Shown piece by piece: positions 14,877-62,345 of a stretch of 64,000 nucleotides of DNA. Every line of letters begins with the position of its first letter. Positions within the stretch are counted from its first letter, which is position 1. A program made the position numbers and the translations under genes. This stretch comes from Nereocystis luetkeana (Eukaryota; Sar; Phaeophyceae; Laminariales; Laminariaceae), in the NCBI GenBank assembly GCA_031213475.1, contig JARUPZ010000004.1:5713169-5777168 (forward strand), read 5' to 3'. The notes beneath the pieces are model-generated. The model saw only the letters and a list, made by a program, of their open reading frames with translations. It searched no databases and was not told where the DNA came from.

Positions 14877-14973
14877 TTAACCCTTTTAGAACCGCAGTCC
14901 CGTTTTGGGGACAAACCAGTCTAATTTCAAGTAGTTTGTCCCCAAAACGGGACTGCGGTTCTAAAGGGGTTAA
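14877..14973. mobile_element. TTAA-type hairpin MITE (family C), best copy
   Basis: TTAA flanks both ends. The arms pair almost perfectly over about 35 bases (CGCAGTCCCGTTTTGGGGAC against its complement) around a spacer of about 20 bases. About 97 bases including both TTAA sites. It lies in the putative intron between the exons at 14340 and 15135. Confidence 0.9.
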
Positions 14974-19118: not shown

Positions 19119-20680
19119 CTAGTCGACTTGGTGCCTTGCTACCCTGTCTGTCATCTCCTCCCTACTTTCGTCTACCGCCGTTTCCCTTCTACCCCTCCTG
19201 TTCCCCCCCCTCTCCGCATTCCCTCGGTCGGGCTTTCTGCCACTTCTCCTGTTGCCCCCTCCCCCCCCGTTCCCTTGGGCACCATCCACGGCGGATGCGC
19301 GGCGCTGCCTACTCATCTCAGCCTCAGCCTCGTGCCACCTCACCATGAACCGTTCGGCTGCTTCAAGGATCCCCCGGTACCACTTCCCCGCCTTTTTGGC
19401 TGCAGTGGACCACAACGCGGTCTCAACTCCAAACACCAAGGGGGCAACTTCCGTTGACCCTTCGGTGGCTCGGAACTCCCTAAGGTCTTCGACTATGCAT
19501 CTATGCCAAGTCTTACACTGTCCGCCTGGTCTCGGGTTCTCCCCACCAGTTATCGTCCCGAACATTACCCGACTGGGTAATCGCTCCTTGCTTTGCCGTG
19601 CCACGCCCCCCGCAAAGAAGAGCCGCCGTTTACGAATGGTCGTTTCGATGCTCTCGCAACGTGTCATCTTGAGGGCCTTCGCGTACGAGAGGGTGGCATG
19701 GTCAGTATGAAGTCGGCGCTGGAAGCCAATGACTCGCAGCAGGACTTGGTGGTGAGCCGTTCGAAGCTTGGCAAAGTGTTCCGCTCTGAGGGTCCACGTC
19801 ACACACCCGTACAGCAGGGTCTCAATCACCTCGGCCTTCAGCATTCGGACTTTAAGGCTAAGGGGGGCGGTCGTCCTATCATACAACTCCGGGCCGAACC
19901 GTTTGAGGCATGCTCGCATGAGGCGGATCCGTCGGTCGATTTCGAGCGAGAACGCAGCGTTTTCGTGGATAACGCCGCCTAGGTATAAGAACTGGGTCGT
20001 CTGCTTATACCTCTGACCTGCTGCTTCGATGACGAGCGGTGGTGCGAGGGTTGTCCGGTCTGGTGTTTGTAGGACCATTGTCTCGGTCTTCTTTTCCGAC
20101 ACCGTGAGGCCTGCTGCTTCGAAGACAGTCACGATGACTGTCATCATTTTTGCGAGCCCTTCAGTCGACTTCGAGACAATTCCTGCATCATCGGCGTACA
20201 ACATGCCCCATACAGACCTTCACACGCACGCCAATGGCTCCTCCTTCCCTGTTCGAACTACTCCAGCTTCACATAGTTGGACCAAATCCCTTACAATGGC
20301 TTCGTCTTGGCTGAAGCGTACTAGTACGACGTGTAACGCAGCAGCGGCGAACACGTTGAACAGTAACGGTGATAGTACACAGCCTTGCCGCAGCCCCTGC
20401 GTGACATCAAACCATTCCGAGAGCTCGCCGTCATCAGTACGCACGCGAGCCCGCATGCCATCGTGGAAATTACGGAAAATTCTCAGCATCTTGGTTGGTA
20501 CGCCAAAGCGTGTGAGTACCTTCCATAACAGCTCTCGGTCGACAGAGTCGTACGCTTTCTGCAGATCGATGAAGCACACGTAGAAGGGGATTTTCCTCTG
20601 TCGTCCGAGCTCTTGCAGCCGGCGCACGACGAACAACATATCAATCGTTGATCGTGCGGGGCGGAAGCCGCACTGTTCCT
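19119..20680 (-). pseudogene. LINE reverse transcriptase palm and C-terminus
   Basis: Motifs in order: [29 protein letters not shown] (catalytic Asp), [29 protein letters not shown] (the YADD box) and FLYLGGVI. A C-terminal domain follows, with KRRLFFAGGVARQ and KWYRGILEAAERF. A TGA at 20220-20222 lies five codons before the YADD-box methionine in the same frame. The expected residue is Arg, so a CGA to TGA transition is likely. Downstream of it 360 codons are open to a stop at 19119. Confidence 0.9.
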
Positions 20681-20682
20681 CG

Positions 20683-21190
20683 GGAGTAGTTCCTCGGTCT
20701 CGCAGTAGTTGCTGAGGCGGGACGCGACGATTTTCAACAACAGTTTGCCTGCGTGGACAATAAGCGAAATCCCTCTATAGTTGGTGCGGTCAATTCGATC
20801 CTTCTTTTTGTGAAGGACCTTGATGATCGCATATTTCCATTGCTGAGGGACTTCTCCTGTTAACCAAACATTGAGAAGGATGTTGTGAAAGCGCTGGGCG
20901 AATGCCGGACGGTCGATTTTTAGGAGTTCGACCGGGAGACCATCTGGCCCGACAGCTTTCCAATTCGACATCCCCTTCAGTGCTTCTGCCATCTCGTCTA
21001 TGGATGGTTCATCTTCAAGCGACAGTTTAGGCGGTCGCGGTGGCAAGAGGTCGATGATCGTGGGATCGAGTTTCAGCGACTTCGTGTTCAAGAGTTTGTG
21101 GTAAAACCCCGCCCATCGTTCACGAATTCGCACCTTATCCCGTAGGATCGTGCCATCCTCGTCCCTAATGAACTGTTCGCTCCTCGCTTA
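20683..21190 (-). pseudogene. LINE reverse transcriptase, N-terminal part
   Basis: The frame runs from [16 protein letters not shown] through [10 protein letters not shown] to the RT fingers: [16 protein letters not shown], then [15 protein letters not shown] and NYRGISLI. At about 20685 a single-base loss after GAG GAA CTA CTC shifts the frame. The sequence that should read [14 protein letters not shown] continues in another frame. Confidence 0.9.
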
Positions 21191-22752
21191 GTCCCTTCCA
21201 ATCCTACCGTACTCTTAAGGTGCTTGTAAAAGCCTCTTTGGTCGTTGTTCGCTAGGAGTCGTTCGGTTTCGGCAAGGTACGCTTCGAAGTACGCATGCAG
21301 TCCTGCGGCAATCACCTTCTGCAGGTTCGCACACGCAGAACTCGGGGTCTTCCACGCGGTTCTGTCCCGGGGGTGGGCACGCAAGAATTGTCGTGCCTCC
21401 TCCCTCGCTGTCCATGCTGGCATGAATGCGGCCAAGGTTTCGGCAGACTCACACCATCCATGTCTGCGGTGGCGACGTGCAGGGGGTGGTACCTCTTTTT
21501 CGACCGCATCAATAACAGCCGTAGTGAAAATCTCAACCATACCAGACGTATTACGGGGCTGGATAGGCTGGTTGAGAGTGGAGCTGACCCTGGAGACTAC
21601 TCGTTCACGACACTTTCCATCGGACATAAAAAGCTGCCTGTCGAACTCTCGGCGTTTCGTCGGGTTACGTATTTGTCTATTGGGCGCAAAATGACCACCG
21701 AGTCGGACTTTGATATACAAGATGTTGTGGTCTGAGTCAGCCTTAGCTGGGGCAGGAGGCTGTGGGAAGACTTTCGCATCTTGTACTCTAGGTCGGTGGG
21801 CTTGACGGGTTAGGATGTAGTCGATTCGCTTACGGTCATTCGGGCCGGTGCCGTTGTGAGTATGCGATATCCCACCCTTGCGCGTGCTGAAAAACGTGTT
21901 GGTGAGAGCTAACTTGCAGTTGGTGGCGAACGACAGGAGCCGTCTGCCATTATCGTTACGAACATCACGTCCATACGCTCCCAGCACTCTGCTTTCATCA
22001 TCACCGCACCCTTCCTTCCTCTGTCCAGTTCGCGCGTTGGCATCCATCAGTACAAACAGACACTCTTTCGTCGGGATTTTTTCCACCAAGTCCTCCAGCT
22101 TCTGCCAGAAAATACGTTTCAGTTCGGCGTCCTTGGTACAATCAGTTGGAGCATACACAACGACGAAATTGACTGCCTCGCATTTTCCAGCCAGCTCAAA
22201 GCTCATAGACATTAGCCGCTCGTCAACGAACTGATGAGTATACACAGACTTACTGCACAACGATTCCTTGACAGCTAGGCCTACTCCGTACAGCCCTTGC
22301 CTGGTGGCTGTTGTTTCCTGTCCTGAACAGAAAACACGATACCCTGCCGCACGGAACGTCGTGCTGCCGGACCTCCGAGTTTCTTGCAGGCCAATGAAGT
22401 CACAGCCGAGTTGCCGTCCCTTCGCCAGTACACGCTCGTCATGTCCGTACCCGTTCTTCCCCTTTACAGCAAGGGTGCGCACATTGTAGGTCGCTACCGC
22501 CACAAGTGCCTCCTTCTGTCTCTTACGAGCCTCGCGTGCTGCTTTCTTTGCCAGCCGACGTGAGGCTCGTCCCCGCCTTCTTTTTTTTCTTTTTTGTTTC
22601 TTTTTTTTCTCTGTGGCGAAAGTGGCTCTCCGTTTCGTAGCCCGGTACGCGCCTTGGTTTCCAGTTGGCTGGGTGCAGCCGTCCCAACCCACGCCGACAA
22701 TCCCATCCTTCCTGTCGTGCATGCATACCCACGCTGTGGCCAGTCTCTCCAC
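21180..22752 (-). pseudogene. LINE endonuclease domain and linker
   Basis: The frame opens with a basic stretch (lysine-rich, about residues 46-75), then the exonuclease-endonuclease-phosphatase fold. Visible motifs are VATYNVRTLA, GLQETRRSGS (catalytic Glu), FVVVYAPTD, LMDANARTG (Asp-x-Asn), KRIDYILT and ADSDHNILYI (Ser-Asp-His). All are expected of an AP-like LINE endonuclease that nicks target DNA. A linker follows (ERLLANNDQRGFYKHLKSTV). The frame is lost near 21180; the next frame resumes at [16 protein letters not shown]. The ATG used is the first one; the true start may lie slightly upstream. Confidence 0.9.
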
Positions 22753-25710: not shown

Positions 25711-26007
25711 GTGAACGATCCGGAGGACTCTGTGATTAGCTTTTACGAGGACGGCCAAGATGCTCAGCAAACGCCGACGGTGGCTAACGACGAGATCACC
25801 ATCGACTTTTCGTGGCTTCAAGAGGACGAAAAGCTCATAACTGACCACCGGCACAATATACCCAGGTTGGCAAACAAGTCGAACCCTAGACACTGGAAAC
25901 ACATTCGGTGTTTGACCGTGCAATTGGACGAGGAACGAGATATGAAACCCCGTCGGCTTCTTAGCGCCTATCGAGCAAGCGTCCTCGCCGTTCAATGGCC
26001 ATATTGA
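25711..26007 (+). CDS. Candidate exon upstream of the cassette array
   Basis: Acceptor GCTTACGCTCTGCAG. The frame is open for 98 codons, starting VNDPEDSVISFYEDGQDAQ, then an acidic region (EITIDFSWLQEDEKLI) and a basic end (RDMKPRRLLSAYRAS), before TGA. No convincing donor precedes the stop. It could be a terminal exon of something else or a decayed exon. Family not recognised. Confidence 0.3.
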   Translation: MNDPEDSVISFYEDGQDAQQTPTVANDEITIDFSWLQEDEKLITDHRHNIPRLANKSNPRHWKHIRCLTVQLDEERDMKPRRLLSAYRASVLAVQWPY

Positions 26008-26654: not shown

Positions 26655-27042
26655 CCACGCTAACCACTGCGGTGGATCCAACAACAGGTGTACTCTAGAT
26701 CATTTTACCAGGTAGATTCGCCCATTTTCTTGCTCGTGCAGAGCTCTTCACGCGCGGGGCTGGATCGGATATATGCGGCCACACTCGAGCCGGGTCGAAC
26801 AGAATGTCGTTGGGCGAGAGGCTGAAGTGAGCGCGAGTGGCATTAGGTATGCGCATGGTGATGTGCGGACCCTCTTCTCCAGGACCGAACAGGTTATGGT
26901 CGATCGAGTAGATGAAGGCGAGGTCAGTCTCTGGGGTGGCCACACTCCGCTGCTGCTGCCGAGCCCCGACAAGGTGGGCAACGAACACATATTTTGAGAG
27001 CGTGCAATTCTGTGCTCCCCGAATCGCTTCCGTCTGACCGCT

Positions 27043-27139
27043 TTAACCCCTTTAGTACCACAATCCCGAGTTGGGTACAAACCAGTCTAATTCCAAGTGA
27101 TTTGTCCCCAAAACGGGACTGGGGTCCTACAACGGTTAA
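27043..27139. mobile_element. TTAA-type hairpin MITE (family C) with readable empty sites
   Basis: TTAA flanks both ends. The two younger copies of the surrounding repeat lack it: there the site reads GGCTGCTTTAAAAGCTGAAC (about 31033) and GGCTGCTTTAAAAACTGAAC (about 32613). Here the element separates GACCGCTTTAA from TTAACAGCTGAAC. This shows insertion at TTAA with duplication of the tetranucleotide, as piggyBac-type transposases do. Confidence 0.9.
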
Positions 27140-28009
27140 CAGCTGAACAGCGTGTCACCGCTACCGTGTTCCTCCTATCTAATGCGCCCGGTAGAGTCGG
27201 GCACCACGGATTTCGAAAAAGGCCTTGTCAAGAACGACACGCTAAACCGAATGCAACTACCGTGTGCACCACATGGACCACAGCGTCCTAGCGTATTCCG
27301 GTACCTGAATCGCCGGTGAGATGGCGGCAGCAGGGCGATGGTGTCTGACATGGTATCCGCGGGCCTTCACCCTTTCTATTTGGGTGAAGCCAACTCTACT
27401 CCATTGGCAGGTGTTGTGCGAGGAAACGTTGGACGTGAGTAATGCCATGGTCGTTTAGGACCCCGATTCGCAAATGGCACTATAGATACAAACCTTATCA
27501 CGCTAAGCTTGACAGTGTACGGCCTTCAAAAAGCAACGGAGGTCTGCCTTCTCCGGAGACTGGGTGGACGGCATGATGAGATGGTGTGTGCCATGCCGGA
27601 TGTACTGCCTACCGTAAACGCTTTCGCTTTCAAGTCAAGCATGAACCACATGTCACCTATGGCGTAGCATGCCAATGCTGGAGATCTCCCGTAACTCGGC
27701 ACAAAACGAGATACGTGGCTGACTCTTATTAATTTCCTTCTGCCCTTTGGGCTTGGCCAGCATATTGAAGGCGATATAAACTTCGCCGCTGATGCTCTGA
27801 CCGAGTCAGTATCGAATGAGATCGCCATCGTCGGCCCACGTCGCTGCAGAAACACATCCGCAACGGAGATATCTTCACAATTCCGCGTTGTCACTACGCC
27901 TCCAATGCCAAGACGTGTACACTGCTCTCGTGATTACAGTGAATAGTGCTCGTGTACCGTATTCACGTCCGACCGCTACGTACGTTTTTACAATCTGGAG
28001 TATGTGTAC

Positions 28010-28087
28010 ACTACCTTCAAAACCGGCCACGTCATGTCTAGTTTTTCTATCGCAGTGTCGGCGATTCATAAGGCATGGGTGCAGCAG
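28010..28087 (+). CDS. Cassette exon U1, acceptor lost
   Basis: 26 codons opening TTFKTGHVMSSFS and ending AWVQQ, donor CAG then GTACGG. The acceptor position reads TAC where the other copies have TAG, so this cassette is probably skipped. Confidence 0.45.
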
Positions 28088-28324
28088 GTACGGCGATGTT
28101 TCCTCTCGTCAGCACGCGTTCCATGCGTGATATACGTACTGAATGGCCATGAACTGGTAATTTCCCTACAATTTGATGGTGGTTTGATCCGTGATACGTA
28201 CACGGTCGAGGTTGGTGTCAAATTGAACGATGCCATGGTACTGCCAACACATAACGTACAACAGCAATGGAGCCCATATCGGTTTGATGATCCTAGCGGT
28301 ACGTGTCTGTGAACCCTTCTATTC

Positions 28325-29700
28325 GGGTATCACAGACCAAAGCACCATCAAATCGTAGGGAAATCAACAGTTCATGGCCGTTCAGCACATATATCACGCA
28401 TGGAACGCGTGCTCAGGAGAGGAAACATCGCCTCACCTACTGCGCCCATACCTCGTGAATCGCCGACACGGCAATAGAAGAACTAGACTTGTGTGGCCGG
28501 TTTTGAAGGTAGTCTACACATACTCCAGATTGTAAATGCGTACGTAGCGTTCGGACGTGAATACGGTACACGAGCACAATTCACTGTGATCATGAGAGCA
28601 GCGTACACGGCTTGGCATTGGAGGCGTCGGTACTACGCGGAATTGTTTTGATATTTCCGTTGAAGGTGTGTCTCTGCAGCGACGTGGGCCGACGATGAGG
28701 ATCTCATGCGATGCTGACTCGGTCAGAGCATCAGAGGCGAAGTTTATATCGCCTCCAAGAAGCTGGCCAAGCTCAAAGAAAGGGCGAAAGGAAGTTAATA
28801 AGAGTCAGCCACGTATCTCGTTTAGTGCCGAGTTACGGGAGATCTCCAGCATTGGCATGCTACGCCATAGGGGACATGTGGTTCACGCTTGACTTGAAAG
28901 CGTAAGCGTTTACGGTAGGCCGTATGTCCGGCATTGTACAAATCACCTCATCATGCCGTTCACCCAGTCTCCGGAGAAGGCAGACCTCCGTTGCTTTGTC
29001 AAGGCCGGACACTGTCAACCTTAGCATGATAAGGTTGGTCTCTAGTGCCACTTGCGAATCAGGGTCCCAAACGACCACGTAAGGAAATCAACAGTTCATG
29101 GCCGTTCAGTACATATATCACGCATGGAACGCGTGTTAACGAGAGGAAACATCGCCATACCTGCTGCACCCATGCCTTGTGAAACGCCGACACTGCGATA
29201 GAAGAACTAGACATGGCGTGGCCGGTTTTGAAGGTAGTCTACACATACTCCAGATCGTAAATGCGTACTGGTACGTAGCATTTGGACGTGAATAAGGTAC
29301 ACGAGCTCAATTCACTGTGATCACCGAGCAGCGTACACGGCTTGGCGTTGGAGGCGTAGGGACAACGCGGAATTGTTTTGATATTTCCGTTGCGGATGTG
29401 GTTCTGCAATGACGTGGGCGGACGATAGAGATCTCATTCGATACTGGCTCGGTCAGAGCATCAGCGGCGAAGTTTATATCGCCTCCAATAAGATGACCAA
29501 GCTCAAAGGGCGGAAGGAAGCTAAGAAGAGTCAGCCACGTATCTCGATTTGTGCCGAGTTACGGGAGATCTCCGGCTTTGGCATGCTACGCCATAGGTGA
29601 CATGTGGTTCATGCTTGACTTGAAAGCGGCCGTTCACCCAGTCTCCGGAGAAGGCAGACCTCGGTTGCTTTTTGAAGGCCGTACACTGTCAACCTCAGCG
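28325..29700 (-). repeat. Inverted copies of the array unit
   Basis: Two adjacent stretches (about 28325-29080 and 29081-29700) read as array units on the minus strand. Each contains a reversed cassette exon and the reversed GAGGCGATATAAACTTCGCC segment. They separate the older plus-strand copy at 27.6-28.3 kb from the clean tandem copies at 30-33 kb. Confidence 0.75.
29161..29238 (-). CDS. Cassette exon in inverted orientation
   Basis: On the minus strand: acceptor GTATGTGTAG, 26 open codons (TTFKTGHAMSSSSIA at the start, AWVQQ at the end), donor CAG then GTATGG. Intact, but opposite to the array, so it cannot be spliced into the plus-strand transcript. Confidence 0.4.
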
Positions 29701-30320
29701 TGATAAGCTTGGTCTCTAGTGCCACTTGCGAAACAGGGTCCCAAACGACCATGGCCTTGCTCGTGTCCAACGGTTCCTCGTACAACACCTGCCAATGGAG
29801 TAAACCTTATCACGCTAAGCTTGACAGTGTACGGCCTTCAAAAAGCAACGGAGGTCTGCCTTCTCCGGAGACTGGGTGGACGGCATGATGAGGTGGTGTG
29901 TGCCATGCCGGATGTACTGCCTACCGTAAACGCTTTCGCTTTCAAGTCAAGCATGAACAACATGTCACCTATGGCGTAGCATGCCAATGCTGGAGATCTC
30001 CCGTACCTAGGCACAAAACGAGGTACGTGGCTGACTCTTATTAACTTCCTTCCACCCTTTGGGCTTGGTCATCTTATTGGAGGCGATATAAACTTCGCCG
30101 CTGATGCTCTGACCGAGCCAGTATCGAATGAGATCTCTATCGTCCGCCCACGTCATTGCAGAACCACATCCGCAACGGAAATATCAAAACAATTCCGCGT
30201 TGTCCCTACGCCTCCAACGCCAAGACGTTTACACTGCTCTCGTGATTACAGTGAATAGTGCTCGTGTACCCTATTCACGTCCTAACGCTACCTACGCGAT
30301 ACAATATGGAGTATGTGTAG

Positions 30321-30398
30321 ACCACCTTCAAAGCCGGCCACGCCATGTCTAGTCTTTCTATCGGAGTGTCGGGGTTTTACAAGGCATGGGTGCAGCAG
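30321..30398 (+). CDS. Cassette exon U2
   Basis: Acceptor GTATGTGTAG, 26 codons (TTFKAGHAMSSLSIGV at the start, KAWVQQ at the end), donor CAG then GTAAGG, phase 0/0. Confidence 0.5.
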
Positions 30399-30722
30399 GT
30401 AAGGCGATGTTTCCTCTCATCAGCACGCGTTCCATGCGTGGTTTGCGTACTGAACGGCCATGAACCGTTGATTTCCCTACAATTTGATGGTGCTTCGATC
30501 CGTGATACGTACACGGTCGAGGATGGTGTCAAATTGGACGATGCCATGGTGCTGCCAACACTCAAAGTGCAACAGCATGGAGCCCATATCTGTTTGATGA
30601 TCCTAGCGGTATGAATTTGTGTACCATACTGCCATCGATACTTTGCATCTCTGCAACCCGGCCTGTTTCATAACCTTGATAACCAACCATTTCTAGTTTT
30701 TTTTTGCCTCCGCCTTACGTAG

Positions 30723-30968
30723 GTCGTAAGCCTTCGACCAGGGACCGACTTGATCGAGTACACGCGGCCACACTCGTTGGGAGTCGAACAAGCTGTCATC
30801 GGTCGAGAGGCTGAAGCCGGCACATGCGGCATTAGGTATGCGCATGGTTATGTGCGTCCCCGCTTCTCCAGGACCGCACAGGTTATGGTCGATCGAGCGG
30901 TTGAAGGCGAGATCACTCTCTGGGGTGGCCACACTCCGCTGCTGCTGCTGATGCCGAGCCCCGACAAG
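30723..30968 (+). CDS. 82-codon exon of the array unit, copy 1
   Basis: A strong pyrimidine-rich acceptor (a TTTTTTTTTGCC run, then TTACGTAG) and a good donor (AAG then GTGAGC) bracket 246 bases in phase 0/0 with no stop. The peptide starts VVSLRPGTDLIEYTRPHSLG, contains IGREAEAGTCGIRYAHGYV and ends LLLLMPSPDK. It looks beta-rich and soluble. An older copy at about 26.77-26.98 kb keeps much of this frame (GIRYAHGDV, LWGGHTPLLL). A minus-strand frame over the same bases is open too, but has no comparable splice signals. Function unknown. Confidence 0.5.
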
Positions 30969-31304
30969 GTGAGCAACGAACACATTTCTTGAGAGCGTGC
31001 AGACCTGTGCTCCCCAAATCGCTTTCGTCTGGCTGCTTTAAAAGCTGAACAGCGCGTCACCGCTACCGTGTTCCTCCTATCAAATCCGCCCGATAGAGTC
31101 GGGCACTGCTGATTTCGAAGAAAGGCCTTGTCAAGAACGACCCGCCAAACCCAATGCAACTACCGTGTGCACCACATGGGCCACTGCGTCCTAGCGTATT
31201 CCGGTACTTTAGCAGCCGGTGAAATGGCGGCAGCAGGTCGGTGGTGTCCAACATGGTACCCTCCCCCTTCTATTTGGGTGGCGCCACCTTTACTCCATTG
31301 GCAG

Positions 31305-31472
31305 GTGGTGTACGAGGAACCGTTGGACGTGAGCAAGGCCATGGTCGTTTGGGACCCTGTTTCGCAAGTGGCACCAGAGACCAACGTTATCACGCTGAGG
31401 TTGGCAGTCTACGGCCTTCAGAAAGAAACCGGGGTTTGCCTTCTCCGGGCAATGGGGGGTCGGCATGATGAG
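31305..31472 (+). CDS. 56-codon exon of the array unit, copy 1
   Basis: Acceptor CCATTGGCAG after a pyrimidine-rich stretch, donor GAG then GTGATG, 168 bases, phase 0/0. The peptide begins VVYEEPLDVSKAMVVWD, continues ETNVITLRLAVYGLQKE and ends GGRHDE. The older counterpart at about 27.4 kb carries stops. An additional exon may start at 31653 (acceptor GGGCTTGACCAG, peptide HIEGDINFASGALTESVSN), but I could not fix its donor. Confidence 0.45.
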
Positions 31473-31900
31473 GTGATGTGTACAATGCCGGATGTACGGC
31501 CTACCCTAAACGCTTTCGCTTTCAAGTCAAGCGTGAACCCCGTGTAACCTATGGCGTAGCATGTCCATGCTGGAGATCTCCCGTACCTAGGCACAAAACG
31601 AGGTACGTGGCTGACTCTTATTAACTTCCTTCCACCCTTTGGGCTTGACCAGCATATTGAAGGCGATATAAACTTCGCCTCTGGTGCTCTGACCGAGTCA
31701 GTATCGAATGAGATCACCATCGTAGGCCCACGTCCCCGCAGAACCACATCCGCAACGGAGATATCAAAACAGTTCCGCGTTGTCACTACCCCTCCAACGC
31801 CAAGACGTTTACACTGCTCTCGTGATTACAGTGAATAGTGCTCGTGTACCCTATTCACGTCCTAACGCTACGTACGCGTTACAATATGGAGTATGTGTAG

Positions 31901-31978
31901 ACCACCTTCAAAGCCGGCCACGCCATGTCTAGTTTTTCTATCGGAGTGTCGGGGTTTTACAAGGCATGGGTGCAGCAG
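31901..31978 (+). CDS. Cassette exon U3
   Basis: Identical in layout to U2 (acceptor GTATGTGTAG, donor CAG then GTAAGG). It differs by one residue: Phe for Leu in MSSFSIG. Confidence 0.5.
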
Positions 31979-32302
31979 GTAAGGCGATGTTTCCTCTCGT
32001 CAGCACGCGTTCCATGCGTGGTTTGCGTACTGAACGGCCATGAACCGTTGATTTCCCTACAATTTGATGGTGCTTCGATCCGTGATACGTACACGGTCGA
32101 GGTTGGTGTCAAATTGGACGATGCCATGGTGCTGCCAACACTCAAAGTGCAACAGCATGGAGCCCATATCTGTTTGATGATCCTAGCGGTATGAATTTGT
32201 GTACCATACTGCCATCGATACTTTGCATCTCTGCAACCCAGCCTGTTTCATAACCTTGATAACCAACCATTTTTAGTTTTTTTTTGCCTCCGCCGTACGT
32301 AG

Positions 32303-32548
32303 GTCGTAAGCCTTCGACCAGGGACCGACTTGATTGAGTACACGCGGCCACACTCGTTGGGAGTCGAACAAGCTGTCATCGGTCGAGAGGCTGAAGCCGG
32401 CATGTGCGGCATTAGGTATGCGCATGGTTATGTGCGTCCCCGCTTCTCCAGGACCGCACAGGTTATGGTCGATCGAGCGGTTGAAGGCGAGATCACTCTC
32501 TGGGGTGGCCACACTCCGCTGCTGCTGCTGATGCCGAGCCCCGACAAG
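32303..32548 (+). CDS. 82-codon exon of the array unit, copy 2
   Basis: Copy of 30723-30968 at an offset of 1,580. Same acceptor (GTACGTAG) and donor (AAG then GTGAGC), same open frame; ACATGC has become ATGTGC, changing Thr to Met. Confidence 0.5.
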
Positions 32549-32884
32549 GTGAGCAAAGAACACATTTCTTGAGAGCGTGCAGACCTGTGCTCCCCAAATC
32601 GCTTTCGTCTGGCTGCTTTAAAAACTGAACAGCGCGTCACCGCTACCGTGTTCCTCCTATCAAATCCGCCCGATAGAGTCGGGCACTGCTGATTTCGAAG
32701 AAAGGCCTTGTCAAGAACGACCCGCCAAACCCAATGCCACTACCGTGTGCACCACATGGGCCACTGCGTCCTAGCGTATTCCGGTACTTTAGCAGCCGGT
32801 GAAATGGCGGCAGCAGGTCGGTGGTGTCCAACATGGTACCCTCCCCCTTCTATTTGGGTGGCGCCACCTTTACTCCATTGGCAG

Positions 32885-33052
32885 GTGGTGTACGAGGAAC
32901 CGTTGGACGTGAGCAAGGCCATGGTCGTTTGGGACCCTGTTTCGCAAGTGGCACCAGAGACCAACGGTATCACGCTGAGGTTGGCAGTCTACGGCCTTCA
33001 GAAAGAAACCGGGGTTTGCCTTCTCCGGGCAATGGGGGGTCGGCATGATGAG
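32885..33052 (+). CDS. 56-codon exon of the array unit, copy 2
   Basis: Copy of 31305-31472 at an offset of 1,580, with the same splice sites and open frame. One visible change turns NVIT into NGIT. Confidence 0.45.
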
Positions 33053-33480
33053 GTGATGTGTACAATGCCGGATGTACGGCCTACCCTAAACGCTTTCGCT
33101 TTCAAGTCAAGCGTGAACCCCGTGTAACCTATGGCGTAGCATGTCCATGCTGGAGATCTCGCGTAACTCGGCACAAAACGTGATACGTGGCTGACTCTTA
33201 TTAACTTATTTCTGCCCTTTGGGCTTGACCACCTTATTGAAGCCGGTATAAACTTCGCCGATGATGCTCTAGCCGAGTCAGTATCGAATGAGATCGCCAT
33301 CGTCAGACCACGTCAATGCAGAACCACACCTGCAACGGAGATATCGAAACAATTCCGCGTTGTCCCTACGCCTCCAACGTTATGCCGTGTACGCTGCTCG
33401 GTGACCACAGTGAATTGTGCTCGTGTACCGTATTCACGTCCGAACGCTACGTACGCATTTTCAATCTGCCGTATGTGTAG

Positions 33481-33558
33481 ACTACCTCCGGAAACGGCCA
33501 CGCCATGTCTACTTCCTCTACCGCAGTGTCGACGATTCACAAGGCGGGCGTGCAGCAG
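33481..33558 (+). CDS. Cassette exon U4
   Basis: Acceptor GTATGTGTAG, 26 codons (TTSGNGHAMSTSSTAV at the start, HKAGVQQ at the end), donor CAG then GTATGG, phase 0/0. It is intermediate between the U1-U3 type and the U5 type. Confidence 0.5.
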
Positions 33559-33825
33559 GTATGGCGATGTTTCCTCTCGTTAGCACGCGTTCCATGCGTG
33601 AAATATGTACTGAACGGCCGTGAACCGTTGTTTTCTCTAATTTCACCGCGGGTATCCGCAGTGCGCGGTCGGAGTATACATCAATGAGCTGCGGGAGTAT
33701 TTTACTGACGACACGGCAAGAGCGGCCGCAGTGATCTGGCACCTACTAGGCGGTCACAATTCATTGTACTCGTATACAATGTTGACACCCAACAATTGCG
33801 CCTTTACAATCCGATGTATGCACAG

Positions 33826-33903
33826 GCTGCCTCTGGGGACGGTGACCTCGTGGCTACTCCCTCTGTCGCAGAGCCGACGATAGACGAGGCAGGAGTGGAG
33901 CAG
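33826..33903 (+). CDS. Cassette exon U5
   Basis: Acceptor GATGTATGCACAG, 26 codons (AASGDGDLVATPSVAEPT at the start, DEAGVEQ at the end), donor CAG then GTAAAG. Acidic and Ala/Thr-rich. 345 bases after U4. Confidence 0.55.
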
Positions 33904-34105
33904 GTAAAGCTACGTTTCCCCTCGTTAACAGGCGTTCCATGCGTGAGATATGTATTGAACGGCCGTGAACCGTTGATTTCCTTAATTGTATCGTGGTTCG
34001 TTCCGCGCTGCACGGTCGAGGTTTGTGCCAACTTGTGCGATGCCATGGTGCTTCCAACACCTAGTACATTAATCATGTGTCTACGCAGGGGAATCGCTGA
34101 TTTAC

Positions 34106-34189
34106 ATGTTCCACACGGCCGTCGTCGACGGCCACAGCAACTACGTAGGGTTTTACGATTGCCATCGAGTGAACGTCTCCGGAGGAAGC
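34106..34189 (-). CDS. 28-codon cassette in inverted orientation
   Basis: On the minus strand: acceptor GCGTATGTGCAG, 84 open bases (ASSGDVHSMAIVKPYVVA at the start, GRVEH at the end), then GTAAAT. Together with the degenerate plus-strand copy ending at 34373 (which shares CACTCGATGGCAATCGT), it forms a local palindromic arrangement. Confidence 0.45.
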
Positions 34190-34642
34190 CTGCACATACG
34201 CCGGATTGTAAAGGTGTAACGTATGGACGTCAATGTGTCGCACAAACACGTGTCACTAGGACTATAAAGCAGGTACCAGCCCAATGTGGTCATGCACTAG
34301 GTGTTGACACTCGATGGCAATCGTGGAACCCTACGCGGCTGTTGTGGCGGTCGACAATTGACATATGGAACAGGTAAGGCAGCGATTTCCCTCGTAAACA
34401 CGCGTCTTATGCACGATGTGCGTCCCCAACGGCCGCGCACCCTTGATTTTCTCTACTGTATCGTGCACTGTGCCGCCATGCGCGGTTGCGGTTTGTAACA
34501 ACCTTCTGGGGTGTTGTTGTACTCGCGACACTGCATGCGCGACTACGTTAAGCTGGCATTTGCTCGGCGATCATAGCGACACCTTATAGTGTTGCTCACT
34601 GATGTCCAAACGCTTCGCATTTACAATCCGACGTGCGTGCAG

Positions 34643-34726
34643 GATACTGCTGGGGGCCGTAAATCAAGGTCGCCCCAGGATTCCTGTCACGTTGAGCCGG
34701 CCGTTGACGTCGGAAGGGTGGACCAG
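34643..34726 (+). CDS. Cassette exon U7, GC donor
   Basis: Acceptor ACGTGCGTGCAG, 28 codons (DTAGGRKSRSPQDSCHVE at the start, GRVDQ at the end). The donor reads CAG then GCGAGG in place of GT; it may be non-functional or a rare GC-AG intron. Confidence 0.45.
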
Positions 34727-35000
34727 GCGAGGCGGCATTTCCGCTGGTTTATACGTGTATAATGCGTGCCGTGTGTGTCAAAAGGCCGTGAAACATTGCG
34801 CTCTTGCTTTTATTCGTGATTTGCCCCGCAGTGCACGGTCGAGATTTGAGCCAGTTTGCTGCGGCGCTATTTCACTGATTGCAGCGCAAGTTCAACCGGA
34901 CTGATCCAACAACTTACAGTACTTGGCGACCATGCCAGAGACCCGCTTGTGTTCCGTTTTGATGTTTAAACGTTACCTTTATAACTTGGCGTATTTGTAG

Positions 35001-35084
35001 GCTTCATCTTCAGACGGTCAGCTCAACTCTCAAGAGGAAGATCGTGTCTTGGTGCCCGCCAACAACAGCCACGTCCACAACCAG
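35001..35084 (+). CDS. Cassette exon U8
   Basis: Acceptor GCGTATTTGTAG, 28 codons (ASSSDGQLNSQEEDRVLV at the start, HVHNQ at the end), donor CAG then GTTAGG, phase 0/0. Confidence 0.5.
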
Positions 35085-35344
35085 GTTAGGCAACGGTGTC
35101 ACTTGTGAATACAACGTTCACGATCATAGTCGCTTGTGCGCCGTCGCGTTATATAAATGTACCGTTGTTTGTTCCCTAGTGCGAGATCGAGGTTTGTACC
35201 GACCTGTTGCAATGCCATGGGAATCGCGAAAGCGCATGAGTGTCAGCATTGGTTAAACAACGGCTTGGCGATCATAGCGACGTTTGTTCCATGTAACGCC
35301 TTGACGTTCAAACGCTCCGCCTTTTACCATGAACTTTCGCGCAG

Positions 35345-35422
35345 ACTGCCACCAGGGACCACCACCCGACGCCTGTCGAGGCTGTCCATGCCGGTGTGCC
35401 GGTCATCGGCGTCAACAAGCAG
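35345..35422 (+). CDS. Cassette exon U9
   Basis: Acceptor CTTTCGCGCAG, 26 codons (TATRDHHPTPVEAVHAGV at the start, GVNKQ at the end), donor CAG then GTCAGA, phase 0/0. It is the last recognisable cassette before the putative membrane exons. Confidence 0.5.
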
Positions 35423-35942
35423 GTCAGACAGCTTGGCCGCTCGTGAACACGCGTTTCACGCACGATGTGTATACTGAACACGCGTGAACCGTTGCGTTGC
35501 GATATTCCATTGTAGCGTTGCTTGTTCCGCAGCGCGAGGTCGACAATTGTGCTGGCTCTCTGCGGCGCTGTGGTCACAACGACAATTTTAGGGGCTCCAC
35601 ATCGATCCGATACCTGTTAGCGATCATATCTCCTGTTCGGTATGGACGTTGAAACAATTCGCGTTTACAACAGCGTTGGGCGTGACAGCTGTGCGGCGAA
35701 GATAGGGGTTGTTTCTTGTTTATGGTATGGACGCTATGTGGTGCACTATTCGAATCAGATCTGCGTAGCACCTGGCATTTTAGAGCGTCAAAGCGAAGCA
35801 AAATGTTTCAACGCATCATACCGCGGCTGAAATCTGAAAGCGTATTCCGAGTCAGTATCGTTCCGGTTGTCTGTCGACACCGATTTTTGTTGTTGCTTCG
35901 CGCCTTGCGCACTATCCTAACATTCGCCCCTACGATCCCAAG

Positions 35943-37293: not shown

Positions 37294-37590
37294 GTGAGCC
37301 GTCTGGGCAGCAAATAGTTGGCAATGGATTTTCTGGAGAGAAGATCCGTGTGCGATTTGCGTGTTGCAAGCCATAACTTGTGTATGTACGTGCAGTATAT
37401 ATCACGTGTTTTCAAATTCCAATCCTTAGCGGAACGAAGGTCTGGTTGGCGTGATGTTGGCACGGCAGGCGCTTTGGAAATGCTCGGATGTTCTGTCTAC
37501 AGTTGTCTATCTTCCACTGCCACCTCGAGTACGGTGTGTTGCTCATGATGATGCTGCCGGTGTTTGCCACCCCGGGCCTTCGTACTGCAG

Positions 37591-37744
37591 GTGTGCGGTA
37601 AAGGACATCTTCGACATGGTCGTGTTCAAGCTTATTTGTGACTACCTCGACGTACTCCTCGTTGGGGAAGACGAGCAGGCGTTGCAAGCGCACGTGCACT
37701 CACGTAGAACCTGCATGATGGCGCGGTTTCCGCCCAGCATATCG
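37591..37744 (+). CDS. 51-codon exon following the membrane exons
   Basis: Acceptor CTTCGTACTGCAG, donor TCG then GTGAGA. It is open only when entered in phase 2, completing AG+G (Arg) with the previous exon. The peptide starts CAVKDIFDMVVFKLICDYLD, then LLVGEDEQALQAHVHSRR, and leaves in phase 0. Probably a soluble segment after the helices. Family not recognised; the continuation downstream was not resolved. Confidence 0.45.
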
Positions 37745-38033
37745 GTGAGATATTGCCTGGCACGGGTTATACGTACGGCGTAGGACACCTGGCTTGGTTT
37801 GAAAAAACGTAATTCAGCCTTCTCAAGTCAAGTCGACACATCTCAATAGTAGTCAGACGCTGCGCATCGTGTGAGCCCAAACGCCTCCATGGTAGCTCTT
37901 GATTTGAGCTCTGACGCTTTTCGTACCTCCGTTGATTGAATCACTGGAGGGCGGTCGTCGGTCGGGAAAAGAAATGACAGCGTCAATTCTAGACAAATAT
38001 ATCGCATGAATAACACGCTATTGTAGTTTATCT

Positions 38034-43518: not shown

Positions 43519-44300
43519 GGAGCGATACGCGAAGGACACCTACCAAAGGGGTATATTTGCTGAGGGGGTGGAACGAGCAGGAGGCAAGGGAGGCGGGGCG
43601 GGGGCGGGGGGGGGGGGAGTAGGGAAGGACACCTGCCAAAAGGATACATTTTGCTGAGGGGGTGGAACGAACAGGGGGCTAGAGGGGAGGAGGGGGGGGG
43701 GATACGCGAAGGACACCTGCCAAAAGGATACATTTTGCTGAGGGGGTGGAACGAACAGGGGGCTAGAGGGGAGGAGGGGGGGGGGGAGATACGCGAAGGA
43801 CACCTGCCAAAAGGATACATTTTGCTGAGGCGGCGGAACGGACAGGGGGCTAGAGGGGAGGAGGGGGGGGGGGGGATACGCGAAGGACACCTGCCAAAAG
43901 GATACATTTTGCTGAGGGGGTGGAACGAACAGGAGGCAAGGGAGGCGGGGCGGGGGCGGGGGGGGGGGGAGTAGGGAAGGACACCTGCCAAAAGGATACA
44001 TTTTGCTGAGGGGGTGGAACGAACAGGGGGCTAGAGGGGAGGAGGGGGGGGGGGATACGCGAAGGACACCTGCCAAAAGGATACATTTTGCTGAGGGGGT
44101 GGAACGAACAGGGGGCTAGAGGGGAGGAGGGGGGGGGGGAGATACGCGAAGGACACCTGCCAAAAGGATACATTTTGCTGAGGGGATGGAACGAACAGGG
44201 GGCTAGAGGGGAGGAGGGGGGGGGGGGATACGCGAAGGACACCTGCCAAAAGGATACATTTTGCTGAGGGGGTGGAACAAACAGGGGGCAGGAGGGGGGG
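43519..44300. repeat. G-rich satellite, nine units of 84-94 bases
   Basis: Units start at 43531, 43624, 43708, 43795, 43882, 43976, 44061, 44148 and 44234 (anchor GAAGGACACCTGCCAAAAGG). Each has a conserved half (GGATACATTTTGCTGAGGGG) and a G-run half of variable length. Units 1 and 5 share a GGAGGCAAGGGAGGCGGGGC variant, hinting at a higher-order period of four or five units. Every minus-strand frame is open across the array (PPPSSPLAP-type), a by-product of C-runs. Confidence 0.95.
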
Positions 44301-44306
44301 AGGGGG

Positions 44307-44436
44307 GTGTTCAGTATCATGCATGGCTGTAGTCGTATCACCATAGACCCTCGCATCCCTGCAATACCGTGGTGGAGCACGTCAGTTTTTCACCGACCAG
44401 GTAGACATTTCTTGCACCAAGCGCGAATCGCCGTGA
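44307..44436 (-). repeat. Dispersed repeat family E, copy 2
   Basis: Reverse orientation. It includes CATGCATGGCTGTAGTCGTA and TGCACCAAGCGCGAATCGCC. It begins directly at the edge of the G-rich satellite and ends in another G-run. Confidence 0.75.
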
Positions 44437-47843: not shown

Positions 47844-59323
<11,480 letters not shown>

Positions 59324-62248: not shown

Positions 62249-62345
62249 TTAGCCCCTTTAGAACCGCAGTCCCGTTTTGGGGGCAAACCACTCAAATTCC
62301 AAGTATTTTGCCCCCAAAACGGGACTGCGGTCCTAAAAGGGTTAA
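62249..62345. mobile_element. TTAA-type hairpin MITE (family C)
   Basis: TTAG on the left and TTAA on the right. The arms are CGCAGTCCCGTTTTGGGGGC and GCCCCCAAAACGGGACTGCG, a perfect 20-base pairing with a compensated change (A to G in one arm, T to C in the other) relative to the 14877 copy. Confidence 0.9.

Follow-up and report, generated by a model that had tools for sequence, protein, structure and literature searches.

A 64,000-nt window of the brown alga Nereocystis luetkeana (contig JARUPZ010000004.1 of assembly GCA_031213475.1, positions 5,713,169 to 5,777,168, forward strand) carries an array of short repeated cassettes of 78 or 84 nt, bounded by splice-like dinucleotides. With moderate confidence, the cassettes are regarded here as present or former coding mini-exons of a multi-exon eukaryotic gene, with phase 0 at both ends and multiplied by local unequal exchange, and the array as relict or dying. 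Six old cassettes show a three-base periodicity that is confined to the conserved AG...GT interval and absent from flanks of the same ancestry, and the near copies show no sign of selection.

Cassette inventory and splice boundaries

A nucleotide profile built from seven units was run against the whole window. Twelve units exceeded its inclusion threshold, all within 27954-35528 and five of them absent from the profile training; three further matches in the window were not significant (best E 0.17). The twelve are eight plus-strand cassettes, three minus-strand cassettes and one truncated plus-strand copy. A preliminary description of this sequence had reported at least eight plus-strand copies of 78 or 84 nt, each open in a single frame. 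All eight were recovered as described, and four units were added (r marks the minus strand):

28010-28087, plus strand: cassette of 78 nt; acceptor lost (TAC), donor CAG/GTACGG; near copy of 33481
28437-28513, minus strand (28513r): cassette copy of 77 nt, frame broken by a 1-nt deletion; TAG acceptor, donor TAG/GTGAGG
29161-29238, minus strand (29238r): cassette copy of 78 nt, open; TAG acceptor, donor CAG/GTATGG
30321-30398, plus strand: cassette of 78 nt, open; TAG acceptor, donor CAG/GTAAGG
31901-31978, plus strand: cassette of 78 nt, open; differs from 30321 at one site
33481-33558, plus strand: cassette of 78 nt, open; chosen to represent the duplicated group
33826-33903, plus strand: old cassette of 78 nt, open; CAG acceptor, donor CAG/GTAAAG
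34106-34189, minus strand (34189r): old cassette of 84 nt, open, in inverted orientation; CAG acceptor, donor CAT/GTAAAT
34308-34473, plus strand: truncated unit, close to the inverted 34106-34189 cassette; without the acceptor side, and with a stop in the cassette frame
34643-34726, plus strand: old cassette of 84 nt, open; GC donor (CAG/GCGAGG)
35001-35084, plus strand: old cassette of 84 nt, open; TAG acceptor, donor CAG/GTTAGG
35345-35422, plus strand: old cassette of 78 nt, open; near-exact match to the top lyase-model segment, 35339-35425 (see below)

The eight plus-strand copies are not independent, and in this respect the preliminary count was overstated. Nested direct and inverted duplications make up 26.7-33.7 kb, and cassettes 28010, 30321, 31901, 33481, 29238r and 28513r are copies from duplication blocks with a unit of about 1.58 kb. 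The four plus-strand members (28010, 30321, 31901 and 33481) form one recent duplication family. The blocks are:

30321-33480, plus strand: two tandem 1580-bp units, 96% identical (30321-31900 and 31901-33480), with one cassette apiece
27136-28315, 28327-29077 and 29079-29804: further partial copies of the duplication block, direct and inverted

The coding tests were accordingly made on six old lineages, namely 33481 (for its group), 33826, 34643, 35001, 35345 and 34189r; the truncated broken unit was excluded, as were the five units that closely copy 33481.

The boundaries resemble splice sites. A YAG acceptor is found in seven of the eight plus-strand cassettes (28010 has TAC) and a GT donor likewise in seven (34643 has GC), with CAG preceding the donor in all eight, much as first described. 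A YAG acceptor, an open 78- or 84-nt frame and a GT donor are intact together in eight of the 12 units (30321, 31901, 33481, 33826, 35001, 35345, 34189r and 29238r), which form equal-length, frame-preserving putative exons in register with conserved splice dinucleotides. The remaining four are damaged or have a donor other than GT: the acceptor is lost in 28010, the frame in 28513r, the start and frame in the truncated unit, and 34643 has its GC donor. In the alignment of old units, a conserved pair was defined as AG in at least five and GT in at least four of the six. Three such pairs are open throughout all six units, with lengths of 69/75, 78/84 and 98-105 nt; two of these lengths are multiples of three, and only the 78/84 pair ends at CAG/GT.

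Length and phase are kept, as had been observed before: old cassettes are 78 or 84 nt only, while indels in the flanks between units are not divisible by three, nor are the spacings of 817, 358, 344 and 1580 between units. From 33481 onward, the gaps between successive plus-strand cassettes are 267, 739, 274 and 260 bp, the 739-bp gap containing two further units.

Three-base periodicity and reading frame

Periodicity is a more independent test than openness, and it is strong here. Together the six old cassettes reach a period-3 chi-square of 63.3, a value attained by none of 5000 shuffles, and G occupies 48% of first codon positions (78 of 162 codons), 14% of second and 27% of third. Flanks of the same ancestry served as control. 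In equal 78-nt windows the cassettes score 59.6 against a flank mean of 8.3 and a flank maximum of 24.9 (n=383). The chi-square remains at 49.0-61.9 when any one cassette is left out, and no flank window of equal width reaches the score of either the opening 48 nt or the closing 30 nt. Taken singly, the cassettes give shuffle p values of 0.052, 0.0067, 0.19, 0.040, 0.0015 and 0.0003, four of the six at p <= 0.04; a chi-square of 12.6 is passed by 3 of 246 flank windows.

A 26-codon frame was slid in register along the six old units, giving 421 offsets per strand and 842 combinations of offset and strand. Only the plus frame running from acceptor to donor was open in all six; on the reverse strand, none of the 421 offsets was. 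In-frame stops are present in the flanks and none occurs in the six old cassettes.

Coding composition was scored with two models. An adenylosuccinate lyase gene, in pieces with introns, lies at 49126-54403 on the minus strand, with more pieces recognized by eye near 55514-55656, and was used as the in-window coding control. Its Pfam matches are ADSL_C (E 3.2e-13) and Lyase_1 (E 3.3e-4, under the curated cut-off), and the pieces show a gene of eukaryotic style. A joint position-specific model, trained on these exons and on open reading frames (ORFs) elsewhere in the window that resemble a long interspersed nuclear element (LINE), gave the sense frame of the six old cassettes +23.9 bits, against -6.5 at best and -26.6 on average in 383 flank windows. 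With the model trained on 212 codons of the lyase exons only, segment 35339-35425, in the sense direction, ranked first in 24.5-39.5 kb; its 19.3 bits exceed the highest value from 30 simulated regions, 17.9. By the same model, the first sixteen codons of the cassettes score less negatively than five of six flank segments.

Given its openness, its splice dinucleotides and the G at first codon positions, the plus-sense frame is taken to be likelier than the antisense frame. The earlier proposal of symmetric phase-0 mini-exons is supported for the six old cassettes through the periodicity confined to AG...GT, with the strand and frame of a product resting on openness, G at position 1 and one of the two coding models.

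Divergence and decay of the copies

In the alignment of old units, exon identity is 51%, against 61% in both adjoining flank stretches of 60 columns. Within the exon it falls from 58% in the opening 15 nt to 50% in the core and 49% in the closing 18 nt, so the impression from the peptides of a variable middle between fixed ends was not borne out. Gapped identity by region was near shuffle level and uninformative. Exon and flank divergence were compared in 13 chosen pairs, of 55 possible among 11 units, and did not differ at p<0.05 in 12 of them; the exception involves a frame-broken copy. The pair 29238r and 33826 differs by 20 nonsynonymous codon changes and a single synonymous one, with more divergence in the exon than in the flanks at p 0.053. 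Between 33481 and 28010, 2 synonymous and 9 nonsynonymous changes are compatible with neutrality. Among near copies, three comparisons gave no consistent preference for a codon phase (judged without a formal test). Lower exon identity had raised the possibility of positive selection on the cassettes, which the pairwise comparisons did not uphold; the lower identity may reflect misalignment or homogenised introns.

Neutral drift from a coding start was simulated in 3000 runs, with 0.4 substitutions per site assumed from the 51% identity. With indels, no run kept all six frames open, and without them 3.7% did; at 0.2 substitutions per site, the corresponding shares were 0.5% and 13.4%. As six frames were retained despite large divergence and the outcome of simulated drift, the old cassettes were probably long under constraint, and the recent copies probably were not. 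The lack of any sign of selection in the recent copies most likely indicates a relict or dying array.

Proposed origin of the array

On this proposal each cassette would be a mini-exon, 26 or 28 codons long and in phase 0 at either end, and local unequal exchange would have multiplied them. The gaps between old cassettes (267, 274 and 260 bp, and 739 bp once) would fit short introns, across which the cassettes would have been spliced. Whole-codon length and boundaries that split no codon would let cassettes be added or removed with the frame intact. A block with the unit of about 1.58 kb, holding one cassette and probably two longer exons, would then have been duplicated several times, in tandem and inverted. 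The duplicated copies would now drift neutrally, and for this reason the locus most likely represents a gene portion that is relict or dying and has presumably lost, or is losing, its function.

Further candidate exons and neighbouring features

Two longer candidate exons lie inside the 1580-bp unit and are in phase 0 if their boundaries are right:

30723-30968, plus strand (copy at 32303-32548): candidate exon c, 246 nt (82 codons); pyrimidine-rich acceptor ending in TAG, donor AAG/GTGAGC
31305-31472, plus strand (copy at 32885-33052): candidate exon d, 168 nt (56 codons); CAG acceptor, possible donor GAG/GTGATG

Periodicity is not significant in c (p 0.13; copy p 0.08) and moderate in d (p 0.005; copy p 0.019). 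The predicted structure of d consists of strands only, with a predicted local distance difference test (pLDDT) score of 46, too poor for a structure search. Upstream of the array, an exon-like open stretch at 25711-25980 stands behind a CTCTGCAG acceptor and has good coding scores, with no Pfam or PDB match; its part 25711-25947 is periodic at p 0.0003. The cassettes, c, d and 25711-25947 may all belong to one gene.

Mobile-element-like sequences are also found in the window. Long ORFs at 19119-22752 on the minus strand read as a LINE-type retrotransposon (labelled by eye only). A palindromic repeat of about 97 bp between TTAA copies, at 27043-27139 and again at 14877-14973 and 62249-62345, looks like a miniature transposon and is missing from the paralogous sites near 31038 and 32618. 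The stretch 37601-37699 is strongly periodic (chi-square 38.3) and resembles by eye a fragment of a copia-type reverse transcriptase; ORF 37430-37780 has no Pfam match. An 87-bp tandem repeat of about eight copies occupies 43606-44307.

Weighing the explanations

Several observations weigh against reading the cassettes as mini-exons. A polypyrimidine tract was not found at the 11 measurable cassette acceptors, which have 6-10 pyrimidines per 17 nt; comparison acceptors have 11 (one adenylosuccinate lyase site), 13 (candidate exon c) and 12 (candidate exon d). The open frames 27947-28309 and 33709-34374 continue across a cassette together with its supposed splice sites. Openness by itself is weak evidence for coding because the frame had been picked for openness in the preliminary description, a plus-strand window of 78 nt in 26-36.5 kb is already open in 43.5% of cases, and the two remaining forward frames are each open in four of the six old cassettes. 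In the same region long ORFs are not significantly longer than in simulated DNA; open-frame length was dropped as coding evidence. The best segment by amino-acid composition there is no better than in simulated DNA (12.4 against a mean of 12.2); 49 composition segments exceed the threshold against 27.8 expected, an excess inflated by the duplications. The chi-square detects a period and not a frame, so that displacing the window by up to about 14 nt makes little difference to the score, and the narrow pieces nt 1-24, 25-48 and 16-48 are equalled by 1.3%, 3.8% and 5.0% of flank windows.

The coding models bear on the strand in the same unfavourable sense. The joint model gives the antisense frame +15.8 bits, at or above the sense score in three of the six (33481, 35001 and 34189r), and the lyase-only model ranks an antisense frame above the sense frame in five of six, though the antisense frame is open in only four of the six. 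Pooled over the six cassettes, the lyase-only sense score is positive in the last ten codons only and negative in the first sixteen. No Pfam family reached its cut-off in the six frames of about 25.5-38.5 kb; one hit, MliC (E 0.13, on the reading 26716-26994), is far under the cut-off and was rejected. Viral and prokaryotic sequence collections yielded no relative, four queries against PDB sequences gave nothing at E below 0.2, and Rfam at its gathering score and ARAGORN returned no matches.

A living gene, with repeated exons still spliced and varied and a modular receptor or surface protein as its product, is unlikely. It would agree with the eight complete units, with the exon identity of 51% against 61% in the flanks, and with the excess of nonsynonymous changes between 29238r and 33826. 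The pairwise comparisons oppose it, 12 of 13 being without an exon-flank difference and the 2/9 changes between 33481 and 28010 fitting neutrality; inverted and broken copies lie inside the array, and the lower exon identity may stem from the alignment or from homogenised introns. The preliminary description had gone further, to cassettes that can still be exchanged and that encode a modular family of surface proteins, possibly undescribed, a claim left unsupported by near copies that drift in the manner of neutral DNA and by the four units with damage or a non-GT donor.

The cassettes could also be pieces of non-coding repeats or transposon debris, open and periodic by chance or through an antisense origin. 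The lack of domains and of selection in near copies, the high background of open 78-nt frames, the antisense scores that equal sense in several cassettes, and the miniature-transposon-like repeats and LINE-like element nearby are all compatible with this. What makes it quite unlikely is that the periodicity runs in register and is confined to AG...GT across old units, that equally related flanks lack it, and that no reverse-strand offset is open in all six. It is very unlikely that the units are decayed pieces of one uninterrupted coding repeat, some 115 codons (345 bp) long, in which the apparent splice sites would be ordinary codons (CAG for Gln, some mutated to TAG). The spacing from 33481 to 33826 is exactly 345, frames read through at the two places named above, and upstream peptides look similar in some units. 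Four upstream segments, short ones, give 13 synonymous and 38 nonsynonymous codon pairs in frame 0, with most changes at the third position. This repeat was weakened as a candidate by flanks without coding composition under the joint model, and flank stops, flank indels and the spacings of 817, 358, 344 and 1580 also speak against it. The reading as old mini-exons of a relict or dying array is preferred over all of these.

Comparison with known exon arrays

Leucine accounts for 3 of 162 residues in the six old cassettes, which would, if translated, yield short, polar, leucine-poor repeats. The earlier remark that the peptides resemble neither leucine-rich repeats (LRR) nor tetratricopeptide repeats (TPR) is consistent with this and with the Pfam result. 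The TPR is a helical repeat of about 34 residues, a module that does not fit into the 26-28 residues of the cassettes, and no TPR or nucleotide-binding (NB) match was found among the Pfam scans of the six frames of about 25.5-38.5 kb. A limited search of the literature turned up no phase-0 arrays of 26- or 28-codon exons, and absence from the literature is not claimed.

Arrays of exons that are equal and frame-neutral supply raw material from which receptors can diversify rapidly, and have been reported with LRR modules in Tetrahymena (in the available part of PMC6564038) and with LRR and TPR modules in brown algae (in the available part of PMC11378527). An array in phase 0 whose module is of another type than LRR or TPR would, if true, be a third solution. 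It is rather improbable that the locus represents a living family of this kind, unlike ROCO-LRR and NB-TPR genes, in which a variable protein would be assembled from phase-0 mini-exons (26 or 28 codons) that change fast, and in which single exons would be locally duplicated, inverted or lost to renew the repertoire. The locus, where old cassettes with open frames lie next to recent, broken copies, could show both the growth and the death of an array.

Repeated exons encoding repeats are shared with the locus by the NB-TPR genes of brown algae, whose TPR exons are shuffled (Zambounis et al. 2012; Teng et al. 2023; both via the available part of PMC11378527). The shuffled LRR exons of brown-algal ROCO genes are 72 bp long, in phase 2, with the consensus LxxLxxLxxLxLxxNxL per exon (Teng et al. 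2024, PMC11378527, available part). Tandem, symmetric exons of fixed length with one module per exon are common to both, as far as that part describes them; the cassettes are 78 or 84 bp, in phase 0 and leucine-poor, and no LRR or ROC-COR Pfam match was found in the six frames of about 25.5-38.5 kb. The Tetrahymena LRR arrays consist of 90-bp phase-2 exons with conserved leucines and an extreme phase bias, have, in the majority of group III genes of T. thermophila, introns of about 257 bp, and are attributed to unequal crossing over and other recombination (PMC6564038, available part). They resemble the locus, on that account, in their tandem equal exons, phase bias and introns of characteristic length, and differ from it in exon length, phase and peptide. 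As the cassettes differ in length, phase and residues, they belong to neither the ROCO nor the Tetrahymena type; their mode of growth is of the same kind.

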